From: Thermohalobacter berrensis
GTDB taxonomy: Bacteria > Bacillota > Clostridia > Tissierellales > Thermohalobacteraceae
Direction: 5' to 3'
DNA length: 44,984 bases
NCBI RefSeq assembly: GCF_003609645.1
Contig: NZ_MCIB01000016.1
Coordinates: forward strand, 1-44,984
The position numbers were made by a program, and so were the translations under genes. The notes beneath the pieces were generated by a model that was not told the DNA's origin, did not search any database, and saw only the letters and a program-made list of their open reading frames with translations. Each line of letters opens with the position of its first letter. The stretch's first letter is position 1. Positions 16,196 through 29,755 of this stretch are shown piece after piece.

Positions 16196-16345
16196 TAATC
16201 TTTGTGTATACATAATAAATAATATAAAATAGAAATAGGTTAATTTATAAAAAATTTTAAAAAGTTATAAATAATTACAGGTTACCATAGTAATTATTTA
16301 TAGAGTATTAATAAATTGTGTTGTGTATTTCAGGGGGGAGTAAGC

Positions 16346-18016
16346 TTGTTGGGAAGGCAGAATGGTGTCACCATTAAAGATGTTTTAAAAATGAATTGTA
16401 TGGAAAAATGTAAATTAATTGCAGGTTTTAAAGGAGTAGATAATACTGTATCTAGAGTTAATATTATGGCAGATCCAGATATACTAAATTGGGTCCATGA
16501 GGGGGAACTATTACTAACTACTGCATATTCCTTTAGAAAGGATAGTATAGAAATTCAAAAAAAGCTTATTAAAGAATGCTCTAGAAAAGGGCTTGCCGGA
16601 ATAGGTATTAAAATCCATCCATATTTAAAACGCTTATCTTCAGAAGTAATCGATTTAGCAAATACTCTCAATTTTCCAATTATAGACCTCTATTATGATA
16701 TTCCTTTCTCAGATATTATGACACCTATTTTTAAAGAAATTTTTAATAAAGAGGCTTTACTGCTTCAAAGACTAGATAGGATTCATGAAGAATTGATGAA
16801 TGCAATGCTAAGTGGGGCAAGTATAGAAAGTATAGCTAATGTAATACATAAAAACCTAAATAATCCTGTGCTAATTAAGTTAGAATTCCCTAATAAACAA
16901 ATAATGAAATTTGGTGACTTAGATAAATATATAAAAGAATTGCTTATAAATAATATGAGAAGCTTTTACAATTCTAGTTCTTTTAACTACCACGAAAAAA
17001 AATTCACTGAAACTACAGAGTTGATTAGCGGGAAGTATATAAAAAGAGTTATATTACCTATAGTTGTAAAGAACACCATATATGGGCACATATTTTCATG
17101 GGCAATAGATACTCCCTTTAGTGGATTTGATTTGTCAATATTAGAAACTGCTTCTACTACAATTGCTTTAGAAATTTTAAAAAAACTTTCAGTAAGTGAA
17201 GTTGAAAATAGATACAAATCTGAGTATTTAGAAGATTTAATATCACTGGACAAAAAGAGAAAGAAAAAAGCTTTAGAAAGGGCTTCATTTTTTAATTTAG
17301 GATTAGATAATATATATGTTGTTTCTATTATCAATTTGATAAATTCTCATATGGGAAAAGATAAACTATCAACAGATGAAGTTCAACAGACAATATCAGG
17401 GATTATTAGAGCTATTAAAGATTTAATGAATAAGCTGGATATTAAAGGGTTTGTATCTAGTAAAACAGATAGCATAAGAATACTCCTATTTGATAGCGAT
17501 GGGGAACGATTAACTATGAAAATAGGTCAAATCAGACAAAATATAAAAAAAGTACTAGATAACAAAATAACCAATTTAGAATATAGAGCGGGATTTGGTA
17601 GACCATACAAAGGTTTGGAAAATGTTTACAAAAGCTATACAGATGCAATTAAAGCAATTCATGCAGGTGAAATTTTAGGGGAAAGCAAAATAACTTCCTT
17701 TAATGAATTAGGAATTTATAAACTACTATGTAATGACAATCTAAAGGATGAAATGGAAATATTCTATAATGAGACCTTAAAGATACTAGTAGAATATGAT
17801 AAAAACAAATCTACAGAATTAGTAAAAACACTAGAATCATATTTTAAATATAATGGTAATCTTAAACAAATGTCTAAAGCTCTTTTTACTCACTATAACA
17901 CGGTACTATATAGAATACAAAGAATAAAAGAAATTACGGGTATGGATTTAGATAACGCTGAAGATAGGTTAAATTTACAAATAGCCTTAAAAATAAAACC
18001 TATTTTAGATGTGTGA
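16346..18016 (+). CDS. pucR: PucR-family purine catabolism regulator
   Basis: About 556 aa transcription factor with the PucR layout: N-terminal purine-catabolism regulatory domain (VTIKDVLKMNCMEKCKLIAGFKGVDNTVSRVNIMADPDILNWVHEGELLLTTAY in pieces, residues about 5-130), a central GGDEF-like/activator region (about 310-430), and a C-terminal helix-turn-helix (MSKALFTHYNTVLYRIQRIKEITG) that binds DNA. Start is taken as TTG 16346, 6 nt after CAGGGGGGAG; an upstream in-frame TTG (16316) precedes that ribosome-binding site and is unlikely. PucR proteins respond to purine breakdown products, so this is the obvious candidate controller of the locus at 20.7-41.3 kb; the regulon is inferred. Confidence 0.92.
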   Translation: MLGRQNGVTIKDVLKMNCMEKCKLIAGFKGVDNTVSRVNIMADPDILNWVHEGELLLTTAYSFRKDSIEIQKKLIKECSRKGLAGIGIKIHPYLKRLSSEVIDLANTLNFPIIDLYYDIPFSDIMTPIFKEIFNKEALLLQRLDRIHEELMNAMLSGASIESIANVIHKNLNNPVLIKLEFPNKQIMKFGDLDKYIKELLINNMRSFYNSSSFNYHEKKFTETTELISGKYIKRVILPIVVKNTIYGHIFSWAIDTPFSGFDLSILETASTTIALEILKKLSVSEVENRYKSEYLEDLISLDKKRKKKALERASFFNLGLDNIYVVSIINLINSHMGKDKLSTDEVQQTISGIIRAIKDLMNKLDIKGFVSSKTDSIRILLFDSDGERLTMKIGQIRQNIKKVLDNKITNLEYRAGFGRPYKGLENVYKSYTDAIKAIHAGEILGESKITSFNELGIYKLLCNDNLKDEMEIFYNETLKILVEYDKNKSTELVKTLESYFKYNGNLKQMSKALFTHYNTVLYRIQRIKEITGMDLDNAEDRLNLQIALKIKPILDV

Positions 18017-18031
18017 TTTAGGGGGATATAT

Positions 18032-18838
18032 ATGAATATAACAATAATTCATTCTAATAAGAGTCATAAGATGCCTAAAACTGTTTTTGAAATGCAGACA
18101 GATACGAAATTTGCCAACAACAAATTTATTCCTCATTTAAAAGACGAGAAAAAAGTATGTAATTTATGTGGTAAAAAATGTTATTGGTGTAGAGGAGAAT
18201 ATAATTTAGATTTTAGCCAAAATATAAAAGAAATTATCAGTTTACCAGATGTATACCCTTTATTTGTGGACAATCCTTTAGATTATTTGCCAGAAAAATT
18301 CAAAAAAAGTGATGTTTTTATCCCTCTAGGTATACATGAGGATATTTTAATTGAAATCCCTAGACTAGCTTATGAAAGTGGAGGAAAAGCTCTTATTGTT
18401 CCAATCGAGGACTCAAAATGGGTATCAAGATGGGTTAAGGATAAAACCATAGAAGAGTGTAAGAAGTACTCATTAGAATATGCTTTTCCAAAGCCATTTT
18501 GTACGTTAAACAAGGGGAAGTCAAAAACAATAAATCAATTTATAGAAATATTTAAAATAGGTAAACCTAGATTTAAATTTTATGTTAATAGTAATGATAT
18601 TATAGAATGGGCTGAAGTTATTATTTCAGCTCCTTGTGGGAATGGTTATAATATAGCTAAACACTTAACCGGTAGCAAACTAGGCGAAGAAGCAAAAATG
18701 CGAGTTGCCAAATATTGGCATAGTTTTCCATGTATGGGTAGTATGGAAGTTGACCCTGAACTTGGTGATACTATTTTACATATTGGTGGATATACACATT
18801 ACGAAGCTTTAGAAAATGCCGAAATAGTTAGGATATAA
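18032..18838 (+). CDS. DUF166 family protein
   Basis: 268 aa protein that I match to the DUF166 family, known in methanogens and some anaerobic Firmicutes and of unproven function (sometimes compared to thymidylate synthase). Visible family marks are a Cys-rich N-terminal part (CNLCGKKCYWCRGE), IPLGIHEDILIEIPRLA, ALIVPIEDSKWVSRW, YAFPKPFC, ISAPCGNGYNIAKHL, and a C-terminal HSFPCMGSMEVDPELGDTILHIGGY. Conserved Cys and His could bind a metal or Fe-S cluster. It is 15 nt after pucR and so likely cotranscribed, which raises the possibility of a role in one-carbon or purine metabolism. No signal peptide or membrane segment. Confidence 0.75.
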   Translation: MNITIIHSNKSHKMPKTVFEMQTDTKFANNKFIPHLKDEKKVCNLCGKKCYWCRGEYNLDFSQNIKEIISLPDVYPLFVDNPLDYLPEKFKKSDVFIPLGIHEDILIEIPRLAYESGGKALIVPIEDSKWVSRWVKDKTIEECKKYSLEYAFPKPFCTLNKGKSKTINQFIEIFKIGKPRFKFYVNSNDIIEWAEVIISAPCGNGYNIAKHLTGSKLGEEAKMRVAKYWHSFPCMGSMEVDPELGDTILHIGGYTHYEALENAEIVRI

Positions 18839-18867
18839 AATTTTTAAGTTAAGAAAAAGTAAAAATA

Positions 18868-18896
18868 TTTACCTTATAAAATTTTTATGATATAAT
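18868..18896 (+). promoter_or_regulatory. Sigma-A type promoter for the HTH-TPR/peptide pair
   Basis: TTTACC (18868-18873), 17-nt spacer, TATAAT (18891-18896). The predicted transcript starts near 18903, leaving about 14 nt of leader and excluding the ATG at 18899 as a start codon. It is the only convincing promoter before the pair, so the regulator and repeat peptide gene would be co-transcribed. Confidence 0.75.
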
Positions 18897-18916
18897 ATAT
18901 GCGAGGTGAAAACATT

Positions 18917-20218
18917 TTGAGCAACAATCAAAATAGTCTAGGAAAGCATTTAAAAAGAGTTAGAAAAGAATTGGGTTTTAAACAGCATGAAATTACTGGT
19001 GGAGAAATTACAAGAAATCTTATAAGCCTTATAGAGAATAACAAAACACCTTTAAATGAAAAAACGGCAAAAATACTTGCTGAAAATATGAACAAGCTTT
19101 TAAGAAAAAGTAATATAAATATGATAATAGACCCAGAGGATTTACTTAACCCTGAAAGATATTATGCAAAGAAAAAGGTAGACCAATATATCAATCAGTT
19201 TGAATCTGCAGCTTCTGATAGGGACAAGGAAGAGAAAATAAAAGAAATTGAAACCTTTTTAATTAACTGGGATATTCCCGATAAGAAGACAGTTGCTTTT
19301 GGAAAAATTGGAGATTACTATTATTCTCAAAAAGAATTTTATAAGGCATATATTTACTTTATAAAGGCATTTGAAAATTCTATTAAAATATCAAGGCCTA
19401 CTGTTATTTGTACTTTAATATTAAAAATAACAAGATGCTGTTTAAAGCTAGAAAAATATGATGAAGCTATTCATTACAGTAAAATTGTTCTCATATATGA
19501 AGAAATTATACCAGAAGATTTATTATCTAAAATATTATTTAATACAGCTTTAACTTACTACCATTTAGAGCTATATTCTCATTCTATTGATATAATCAGA
19601 AAGGTAGAAGATAAATTAAATAGAATTGATGGGCAAAAGTTATTTGACCTTCTAACCTTAAAAGCAATTTGTTATAAGGAAATGGAAGAATATGAAAAAG
19701 GCCTCAACATTCATGAAAAAATACTTACTATTATAGATGATAACTTAATAGAAAAAAAGATTATTGTTCTGGTAAATATTCTTAATACTCTTTATGGAAT
19801 GAATGATAAGGAAAGAGTATCTGAATGTCTAAATACTATTTTAGAATTTCTAAATAAGTTACCTTCAACGAATGTTTATTTATGTCAGATTTATTATGAG
19901 ATAGGATGTGCATATAAGTTTTTAGATAGATATAATGAGGCTGAAGAATACTTTGAAAAGTCATTAGAATATGCAGAAAGGAAAAATAATCTAACAATTC
20001 AGGCTAAAGCAACTCTAAATCTAATTGATATATATAAAATGTCTAATAATAAAAAGAAAATAGATGTCTTAAAGGAAAAGGTATTTGGGTTGGTAAAAAA
20101 AAATCTAATTCAGACTAATGATAATATAATTTTTAAACTAATATTATGTTATAACCAATTAGGTTGTATAGAAAAAAGTAATGAAATAATTAATTTTATT
20201 TTAAATAATAAAAATTAA
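18917..20218 (+). CDS. HTH-TPR regulator resembling RRNPP quorum-sensing receptors
   Basis: About 433 aa from TTG 18917, chosen because AGGTGA lies 7 nt upstream and the ATG at 18899 falls before the predicted transcript start. The N-terminus is an XRE helix-turn-helix (LGKHLKRVRKELGFKQHEI, TRNLISLIENNKTPLNEKTAKILAENM). The remainder, about residues 120-430, is a run of roughly eight TPR-like helical hairpins, for example GDYYYSQKEFYKAYIYFIKA, FNTALTYYHLELYSHSIDII and YYEIGCAYKFLDRYNEAEEYF. HTH plus TPR is the architecture of PlcR, NprR, PrgX and AimR, cytoplasmic receptors of short secreted peptides. The next gene, 21 nt away, encodes a small exported repeat protein. Peptide binding and DNA targets are inferred from architecture and context; a non-signalling TPR regulator remains possible. 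Confidence 0.88.
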   Translation: MSNNQNSLGKHLKRVRKELGFKQHEITGGEITRNLISLIENNKTPLNEKTAKILAENMNKLLRKSNINMIIDPEDLLNPERYYAKKKVDQYINQFESAASDRDKEEKIKEIETFLINWDIPDKKTVAFGKIGDYYYSQKEFYKAYIYFIKAFENSIKISRPTVICTLILKITRCCLKLEKYDEAIHYSKIVLIYEEIIPEDLLSKILFNTALTYYHLELYSHSIDIIRKVEDKLNRIDGQKLFDLLTLKAICYKEMEEYEKGLNIHEKILTIIDDNLIEKKIIVLVNILNTLYGMNDKERVSECLNTILEFLNKLPSTNVYLCQIYYEIGCAYKFLDRYNEAEEYFEKSLEYAERKNNLTIQAKATLNLIDIYKMSNNKKKIDVLKEKVFGLVKKNLIQTNDNIIFKLILCYNQLGCIEKSNEIINFILNNKN

Positions 20219-20239
20219 ATATATTAAGGGGGATAGTTT

Positions 20240-20593
20240 ATGAAAACAAGTAAAACAGTTTTACTTATTATGTTACTACTTGTAGTTTCTATTTTTAACT
20301 TATGTGCAGTGGTACCAGAGCCAAGGAGTGTTGATGTAGCAGCAGTGGTACCAGAGCCATGGAGTGTTGATGTGGCAGCAGTAGTACCAGAGCCATGGAG
20401 TGTTGATGTGGCAGCAGTGGTACCAGAGCCATGGAGTGTTGATGTAGCAGCAGTGGTACCAGAACCATGGAGTGTTGATGTGGCAGCAGTGGTACCAGAA
20501 CCATGGAGTATTGATGTGGCAGCAGTGGTACCAGAACCATGGAGTATTGATGTGGCAGCAGTGGTACCAGAGCCATGGAGTATTGATGTATAA
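20240..20593 (+). CDS. Secreted tandem-repeat peptide precursor (candidate multi-copy signalling propeptide)
   Basis: 117 aa. Residues 1-22 are an export signal: Lys at 2 and 5, hydrophobic core LLIMLLLVVSIFNLC. Everything after it is eight copies of a 12-residue unit AVVPEPWSVDVA (first copy has Arg for Trp by a single base change; copies 6-8 have Ile for Val; last copy lacks its final Ala). There is no other domain. Each junction has small residues, DVA-AVV, and VAA fits a signal-peptidase-like or subtilisin-accessible cleavage. AAGGGGGAT is 7 nt before the ATG. The gene directly follows the HTH-TPR gene, as phr follows rap, and a strong terminator follows it. The likely role is a precursor giving several identical short peptides per chain, but no homologue is recognised and a structural or bacteriocin-like role is not excluded. 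Confidence 0.85.
   Translation: MKTSKTVLLIMLLLVVSIFNLCAVVPEPRSVDVAAVVPEPWSVDVAAVVPEPWSVDVAAVVPEPWSVDVAAVVPEPWSVDVAAVVPEPWSIDVAAVVPEPWSIDVAAVVPEPWSIDV
20306..20590 (+). repeat. Eight in-frame tandem repeats of 36 bp
   Basis: Units begin at 20306, 20342, 20378, 20414, 20450, 20486, 20522 and 20558 (last one 33 bp). They differ at only a few positions: gtg/gta, gag/gaa, gtt/att, ccaagg/ccatgg. Copies 6 and 7 are identical. Near-identity at DNA level points to recent duplication and to copy-number change by slippage or recombination. Confidence 0.97.
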
Positions 20594-20630
20594 TCAATTG
20601 TTAACATCACTGCTATTTACATAAATATTT

Positions 20631-20664
20631 AAGGACCTAGTATTTAAATACTAGGTCCTTTTTG
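20631..20664. terminator. Bidirectional terminator between the peptide gene and the convergent cyclase gene
   Basis: Perfect 30-bp palindrome, AAGGACCTAGTATTT / AAATACTAGGTCCTT, followed by TTTT on the + strand. The - strand exit is AT-rich (AAATATTT) with a weaker U-run. It abuts the cyclase stop codon at 20666. Confidence 0.92.
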
Positions 20665-28950: not shown

Positions 28951-29376
28951 ATGGCCAATCAATTGACAAAGGTTGTTATGCAGAATATCCTAAAAAAATC
29001 AGGAAAAGACAAGGGTAATACTGAAGGTCCTACATCTAATAATTTATCTAAAAAAGAAGAAAAAATACTATTAAATGTGATGTATAAAAATGTAAAAAAG
29101 AAGGGGAATAAAGATATTAACAGAGTAACATTAGAGGATTTAACTAGAAAAAACAACTTAGCTAGAAAGGATAAAGACTATGGAAAAACTAAAAAAAGTA
29201 ATACTATGCTGACATTAAAAGATTTAGCTTCAAAAGCAAACAACCAAAGCAATAAAACAGAGGTAAAAAATGATTATAAAAATAGGGAAAAGTTAAAAGT
29301 TAAAAAGAGTAGTTTGAATTCCTATATACCTAAGGTCTCACTTAATTCAATAGGAAAGAATAACTCCTTAAAGTAG
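28951..29376 (+). CDS. Lysine-rich, low-complexity protein inside the microcompartment operon, unknown family
   Basis: 141 aa with no recognised domain. About a quarter of the residues are Lys, with many Asn and Ser and almost no aromatic residues, which predicts an intrinsically disordered chain. Short helical motifs recur: VTLEDLTRKNNLARK and LTLKDLASKANNQSNK share [VL]TL[EK]DL[TA].K, and VVMQNILKKSGK and KILLNVMYKNVKKK look like amphipathic helices. It is sandwiched between BMC-H genes (26 nt and 19 nt gaps), GGTGGTGAGA before the ATG. Possible roles are scaffold or linker between enzyme core and shell, by analogy with disordered carboxysome proteins, or RNA binding from its charge. No function can be assigned. 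Confidence 0.8.
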   Translation: MANQLTKVVMQNILKKSGKDKGNTEGPTSNNLSKKEEKILLNVMYKNVKKKGNKDINRVTLEDLTRKNNLARKDKDYGKTKKSNTMLTLKDLASKANNQSNKTEVKNDYKNREKLKVKKSSLNSYIPKVSLNSIGKNNSLK

Positions 29377-29395
29377 ATTAATAGGAGGTGGAGAT

Positions 29396-29755
29396 GTGAA
29401 AGCTGCATTAGGCTTAATTGAAACAGTTGGATTAACAACTGCAATTACAGCACTTGACGCTGCAAGTAAAGCAGCAGATGTTACTTTAGTGGGTTACGAA
29501 AAGGTCATAGGGGCTGGAAAGGCAGTTAGTGTAACTATACAGTTTGTGGGTGAAGTTGCTGCTGTTAAGGCCAGTGTAGAGGCTGGTGTTAATGCAGGTA
29601 GCAGAGTTGGTACTGTATTATCTCATAGGGTAATACCAAGACCCCATGAAGAAGTTGATAGTTTAATAAAAAGATTTGAAAAAAATATTAAGAAAAAAGA
29701 GTCTAAAAAAACAACTGAAAGTAAAACAAAAAAAGATTTAGATAATAAAAATTAA
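29396..29755 (+). CDS. BMC-H shell protein with pore-loop insertion and charged C-terminal tail, second of three
   Basis: 119 aa. The core is a BMC domain ([36 protein letters not shown]). Its pore region reads [19 protein letters not shown], about four residues longer than the standard KIGSGLVTVIVRGDV and with GAG in place of GSG, so the pore should differ from its neighbours. After residue 95 comes a Lys/Glu/Ser tail ([20 protein letters not shown]) absent from normal BMC-H; composition resembles the disordered protein encoded upstream. GTG start after AGGAGGTGGAGAT. Confidence 0.94.

Follow-up and report, generated by a model that had tools for sequence, protein, structure and literature searches.

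A gene for an HTH-TPR receptor and a gene for a small exported propeptide lying directly behind it very probably form an RRNPP-type peptide quorum-sensing system of the Qsr/Qsp kind in Thermohalobacter berrensis, working by the mechanism proposed below. The pair is encoded in the window, the whole 44,984-nt stretch of DNA that was analysed, and its features are listed in Table 1. What is new here is a palindrome, GTAAA-N4-TTTAC, that lies over the receptor's own -35 box and recurs before family receptors. The reading of the pair as an RRNPP-type receptor with an exported propeptide, already offered in a first-pass annotation of this DNA, was well supported by homology to QsrB, by the propeptides found behind 35 of 37 close receptors, and by an NprR/Rap-like fold and profile.

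Table 1. Features of the receptor-propeptide locus, in window coordinates.
Feature	Position	Strand	Basis
Palindrome GTAAAAATATTTAC, candidate operator of the receptor	18859..18872		Exact match; right arm overlaps the -35 box
Promoter-like site TTTACC-17-TATAAT, TG before the -10	18868..18896	+	Consensus scan, 10/12
HTH-TPR receptor, Qsr-like	18917..20218; ORF open also from ATG 18899	+	Pfam TPR and HTH, AlphaFold2, QsrB homology
Propeptide gene: signal-like start, then array	20240..20593	+	ORF; homologous propeptides behind relatives
Array of eight 36-nt units, AVVPEP[W/R]S[V/I]DVA, last unit ending at the stop	20306..20593	+	Tandem Repeats Finder
Terminator-like hairpin, 13 pairs, then T's; between the propeptide gene and a convergent cyclase gene	20631..20660		

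The order of elements given in the first-pass annotation (promoter, XRE-TPR gene, 21 nt, 117-aa repeat protein, terminator) was confirmed by the open reading frames and the consensus scan, the promoter-like call at 18868-18896 being a match to consensus only. The receptor ORF (18899-20218) encodes 439 aa from its ATG and is followed, after a 21-nt gap, by the 117-aa ORF at 20240-20593. The in-frame TTG at 18917, which stands behind GAGGTG and gives 433 aa, is the likelier start because the -10 box (18891-18896) would place the transcript start after ATG 18899. Minus-strand ORFs across the array were taken to be by-products of the repeat. A Pfam scan identified the neighbours of the pair as PucR, DUF166, cyclase and formiminotransferase genes. 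The same annotation had put the unit between PucR and the purine locus; PucR (16316-18016) is not adjacent to the receptor, since the DUF166 gene (18032-18838) intervenes.

The receptor matched the Pfam families TPR_12 (E 2e-14) and, below the Pfam cut-off, HTH_19 (E 9e-5), and its size of 433-439 aa falls within the RRNPP(A) criterion of about 250-500 aa with TPRs and, often, an N-terminal HTH. An AlphaFold2 model built from 27 sequences (the window and relatives' loci) reached a mean pLDDT of 90.9 and placed an HTH ahead of paired TPR-like helices. Structure comparison of the model returned NprR (5dbk, Z 22.1 over 317 residues) and RapI (4i1a, Z 20.6), both outranked by eleven LGN/Pins-type entries, and the Foldseek list included Rap, NprR and PlcR, all behind LGN. 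Likewise, the family profile matched the solved structures of NprR (E 3e-12) and RapH (E 2e-11), while LGN and kinesin light chain scored better or similarly. The predicted fold agrees with that of RRNPP receptors, an agreement that is weak by itself and no proof: a TPR fold alone is generic, since TPR proteins of eukaryotes (LGN) rank above NprR and Rap.

With the window protein alone as query, 23 of 60 relatives' genomes, its own included, gave matches at E<=1e-10. At E<=1e-20, and with short partial relatives counted, a 21-row alignment used as query matched 47 of the 249 genomes searched from the order; it also matched 62 of 206 genomes of one family, f58 (E<=1e-25), and 5 of 391 genomes of a class sample (E<=1e-30). 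Family members include Tissierella, Schnuerera, Caloranaerobacter, Maledivibacter and several Clostridium. A second full-length receptor was absent from the T. berrensis genome, in which one 242-aa ORF on C23 matches the N-terminal part.

Eight receptors were found by the family profile in genome G764. Behind one of them lies a 50-aa propeptide whose residues 37-43 read AEPTWGW, with seven more before its end, and because this propeptide fits QspB as described in PMC7376267, the two genes are evidently QsrB/QspB of C. acetobutylicum. The window receptor is identical to this presumed QsrB at 126 of 427 positions (30%, E 4e-55). A propeptide lies behind all seven of the G764 receptors that passed the length filter (7/7), and in 6 of them it ends in Trp. 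In C. acetobutylicum, as reported in PMC7376267, the effect of overexpressing QsrB was reversed by short synthetic peptides, AEPTWGW among them.

Propeptide genes are a regular companion of the close receptors (those of at least 360 aa at E<=1e-120, the window included). An exported small ORF was found downstream of 35/37 of these vs 16/119 other ORFs (Fisher 4e-20), and one containing P-x-P downstream of 31/37 vs 1/119 (Fisher 1.5e-25). A propeptide call was an exported small ORF at -45 to +330 nt from the receptor stop, with P-x-P counted after residue 20; the 119 controls came from the same loci and were the remaining ORFs of 200 aa or more, not all of which need be genes. Homologous regulators consistently without a downstream repeat gene, the pattern that the first-pass annotation had set against its own reading, were thus not what was found among close receptors. 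More distant homologues often had no propeptide: calls were made for 47/59 receptors at E<=1e-60 (36/59 with P-x-P) and for 51/70 at E<=1e-25 (39/70 with P-x-P). Two of the 47 calls at E<=1e-60 (L079, L083) were plainly other proteins and were dropped, leaving 45 systems. The gap between receptor and propeptide lay between -17 and +73 nt in 42 of the 45, and between -17 and +21 nt in 40 of these. When 36 propeptides were aligned on P-x-P, mainly two cores appeared, PxPIR and PxPWS. In the Clostridiaceae set a propeptide was called behind 28/48 receptors vs 7/31 control ORFs, and no repeated core was seen by eye among those 28.

Some relatives' loci have further genes near the pair. A gene judged by eye to be subtilisin-type protease-like follows the propeptide in L013 (from 3540) and in L015 (from 3263); its product might process the propeptide or be a target. 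At L117:13673-16726 (G026) and in the matching region of G010 there are two receptors, 365-371 aa long, that lack the HTH part of the profile and have a propeptide containing DPPPLK. The one in G026 stands behind a PAS histidine kinase-like gene, and in both genomes a DUF166 gene 68% identical to that of the window lies about 8 kb from the DPPPLK receptors.

The 117-aa product in the window consists of a short basic start, a hydrophobic stretch (the signal sequence was assigned by a simple rule, not by SignalP) and eight 12-residue units. These are joined head to tail with no spacer and with no Cys, Lys or Arg site between them. Tandem Repeats Finder described the array as 36 nt x 7.9 copies with 96% matches and a score of 498 (20306-20589). 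Variation among units is confined to three silent codon columns, one V/I and one W/R: Arg replaces Trp in copy 1, Ile replaces Val in copies 6-8, and the last unit ends ...SIDV-stop. Two peptide forms set by the V/I exchange, as had been suggested earlier, are possible; the exchange may equally be neutral, because the same choice separates homologues (PWSV, PWSI), and a W/R form exists too. The earlier idea of a multi-copy precursor stood in so far as the array was confirmed and repeated cores persist in some relatives, the release of each copy being putative. At least two copies occur in 10 of the 45 propeptides (nine detected by script and one, L009, by eye): eight in the window, six of GPDPIRAE, three of GEINPEPIR, and two in each of seven, one of these seven being truncated at the end of a contig. 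In the three-copy GEINPEPIR case the cores are kept and the intervening stretches differ.

Given its great uniformity, the array may have arisen by recent slippage and have no selected function beyond one copy. It is possible, if somewhat unlikely, that the pair is a quorum-sensing system in which the last unit or one unit alone signals and the other copies are neutral, recent 36-nt slippage. The 96% identity of the units at the DNA level, as in a young array, fits this account, as do the single copy shown by 35/45 family propeptides and the role of the C-terminal peptide as pheromone in many RRNPP systems (PMC7376267). The changes between units, though few, are mostly silent or conservative, however; other relatives keep their cores while the spacers diverge, and internal copies are active in phage Rap-Phr systems according to PMC11343458. 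The quorum-sensing pair may also be read in a bolder and rather unlikely way, with the array as an evolvable signal amplifier. Its copy number, changing by 36-nt slippage, would set the number of pheromones per transcript, a single kind of cleavage, repeated at each junction of the spacerless units, would release eight active peptides, and the Arg and Ile variants would be a reservoir for new specificity. The array would then feed a self-reinforcing switch, because the receptor would sit on its own -35 box.

It is very improbable that the repeat protein serves a structural or surface role instead of being a precursor and stands behind a regulator by accident: a uniform repeat without Cys, Lys or Arg between units to mark an obvious processing site would suit such a protein, but the relatives have in the same place an ORF with a P-x-P core, mostly in one copy and of 37-66 aa, too small for a structural repeat.

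Receptor and repeat co-vary, as the first-pass annotation had proposed to examine: the peptide core tracks the receptor, and the signal part hardly does so. Across the 45 systems receptor distance correlated with core similarity at rho -0.45 (0/1000 permutations as strong) and with signal-part similarity at rho -0.10 (68/1000 permutations as strong); the partial correlations were -0.44 for the core and 0.006 for the signal part. This co-variation lends support, not proof, to a receptor-peptide match, as shared descent is uncorrected in it and similarity between signal parts is soon saturated. The 11 PxPW-type and 18 PxP[ITE]R-type systems are told apart by ten receptor columns. In a tree of 57 receptors, from which at least the L009 receptor was left out, the window receptor groups with the PxP[ITE]R type (97/94, midpoint root), yet its peptide is PxPW. 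It has the PxPW-type residue at P0001 positions 140, 180 and 255, which fall in model helices 120-136, 160-176 and 238-254, and at 44 and 81 that of the other type, these five columns being too few for a test. Position 255 of P0001 is Glu where the peptide is PxPxR and almost always Lys where it is PxPW; a charge pairing between this residue and the peptide Arg was rejected as a rule, since two PPPLK systems also have Lys.

Multi-core precursors are known for secreted antimicrobial and other modified peptides. A precursor of this sort, locally controlled by the regulator, is a highly unlikely explanation of the array, given that the neighbours PucR, DUF166, cyclase and formiminotransferase include no modification, immunity or dedicated export gene, that the core varies with the receptor, and that the family includes QspB, experimentally an intracellularly acting signal (PMC7376267).

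The palindrome at the receptor promoter recurs in the family. Exact GTAAA-N4-TTTAC was found upstream of 20/58 family receptors, the window included, vs 0.04 in shuffles, and with one mismatch upstream of 30/58 vs 1.24 expected. Other spacers from 0 to 8 gave only 0 to 3 exact matches in the family upstreams, and the upstreams of 69 other ORFs used as controls gave 1 exact match and 2 with one mismatch. At 29/30 sites a TATAAT-like hexamer stands 16-18 nt from the right arm of the palindrome, vs 9.7 expected from shifted positions. The N4 palindrome was absent, even with one mismatch, upstream of 28/58 family receptors. In Clostridiaceae relatives the arms recur with a longer spacer, as GTAAA-N8-TTTAC with at most one mismatch in 20/47 upstreams vs 1.44 expected; among the Clostridiaceae loci L121-L164 the half-site also occurs as GTAAA-N2-TTTAC in four. 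Because the palindrome overlies the receptor's own -35 and recurs exactly in 20 of the 58 upstreams, the receptor probably controls its own operon through this candidate site.

Naming a regulon from the motif was rejected, as the T. berrensis genome has 6 exact GTAAA-N4-TTTAC sites, a count not above the 10 for a backward control pattern. Exact sites in this genome (C34, C5) lie at L236:1501-1514 and at L232:1501-1514 and 2728-2741, and the genes just after them were labelled by eye as aldehyde-dehydrogenase-like, cyclase-like and response-regulator-like.

For the quorum-sensing pair we propose the following mechanism. The small gene product would be exported, and extracellular proteases would cut the array into short peptides centred on P-E-P-W-S-[V/I]; the mature form might be VVPEPWS[V/I]DV, successive copies being separated by Ala-Ala. 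Once cell density is high, an oligopeptide permease would import the peptide; four SBP_bac_5 proteins are encoded in the genome. Inside the cell the peptide would bind the TPR groove of the receptor and alter its DNA binding. By occupying GTAAAAATATTTAC (18859-18872), a site whose right arm doubles as the -35 box for the two genes, the receptor would control its own operon. Computation shows the gene pair and its array, the homology, the conserved core and its co-variation with the receptor, and the conservation of the palindrome over the -35; we infer processing, uptake and binding, and with them the sign of regulation, other targets and a higher signal output per transcript from the eight copies. 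Spo0A is encoded in the genome, so that by analogy with QssB, and on no other ground, sporulation may be a target.

A link to purine use, suggested earlier from the position of the pair, was not borne out. The receptor stands between DUF166 and the cyclase gene within the purine locus. Thirty window proteins were compared by tblastn with 30 receptor stretches of 9-19 kb and 30 control stretches from the same genomes, with receptor and propeptide matches set aside and relatives of PucR, Xdh, AdeC, the permease and SsnA counted at E<=1e-10. Purine-type genes were found near 3/30 receptors vs 1/30 controls (p=0.61), and two of the three positive neighbourhoods came from one species, Tissierella simiarum. 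In that species (L063:420-2117, L067:4916-7153) one pair is divergent from a PucR-like gene and the other lies just upstream of a xanthine-dehydrogenase-like gene. The purine locus of the window also holds, at 28951-29755, a BMC-shell-domain protein (29396-29755) beside a 141-aa protein without a Pfam match. No relative was confirmed in the viral contigs and phages searched, and a plasmid collection gave one match, a chromosome-sized 2.6-Mb record of Acetoanaerobium noterae.

The label of candidate new system in the first-pass annotation goes too far if it means a new kind, as RRNPP systems of Clostridium and propeptides of up to six or eight copies are already published. PMC9765709 describes up to six mature-peptide copies in AimR, NprR, PlcR and Rap propeptides, and longer propeptides as well; PMC11343458 cites up to eight copies and reports tandem copies that are processed and active; repeated Phr peptides are described in PMC5199041, and PMC10075063 reports 21 novel RRNPP clusters. 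In the open-access literature, searched by title and listing, we found no multi-copy clostridial Qsp, no DNA site of Qsr receptors, and neither the clostridial array, the P-x-P family nor the candidate operator in print. RRNPP_detector looks for propeptides of 10-100 aa (PMC10075063), a range that serves the search and does not define them biologically. The 117-aa propeptide exceeds it, and long arrays can be missed by such surveys because precursors of more than 100 aa fall outside. With this pair, Qsr/Qsp-type signalling, which rests on experiments in solvent-forming Clostridium, extends to Clostridia that have been little studied, and the pair indicates that the Qsr-like branch too stacks pheromone copies. 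GTAAA-N4-TTTAC provides a concrete candidate DNA site for Qsr-like receptors; in 2019, to the knowledge of the authors of PMC6414698, PlcR alone among RRNPP regulators had a defined binding motif.

In its several near-identical pheromone copies, carried on an exported precursor encoded beside a TPR receptor, the pair resembles the multi-copy Rap-Phr, AimR, NprR and PlcR systems. Those systems belong to Bacilli and their mobile elements, whereas here the receptor is clostridial and Qsr-like, the core is P-x-P and the units are spacerless. RstA of C. difficile, likewise an RRNPP-type clostridial regulator, acts as a repressor of its own gene by way of an inverted repeat lying over the promoter (PMC6414698). 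Unlike the receptor described here, RstA is presented in that report as an orphan without an adjacent propeptide, and its repeat, of 29 bp, as imperfect and with no consensus defined. The closest likeness is to Qsr/Qsp of C. acetobutylicum, QsrB/QspB in particular, in which a homologous HTH-TPR receptor has a small exported propeptide directly behind it and the peptide core shares Pro and Trp (AEPTWGW in QspB, VPEPWSVDV here). Qsp precursors, as described in PMC7376267, are 39-50 aa long, contain one peptide and mostly end in Trp, with conserved Leu, Pro and Trp near the C-terminus and Trp last except in QspB. The T. berrensis pair is better called Qsr-like than Qsr/Qsp proper, because its precursor of 117 aa and eight units has Trp within the units and no final Trp.
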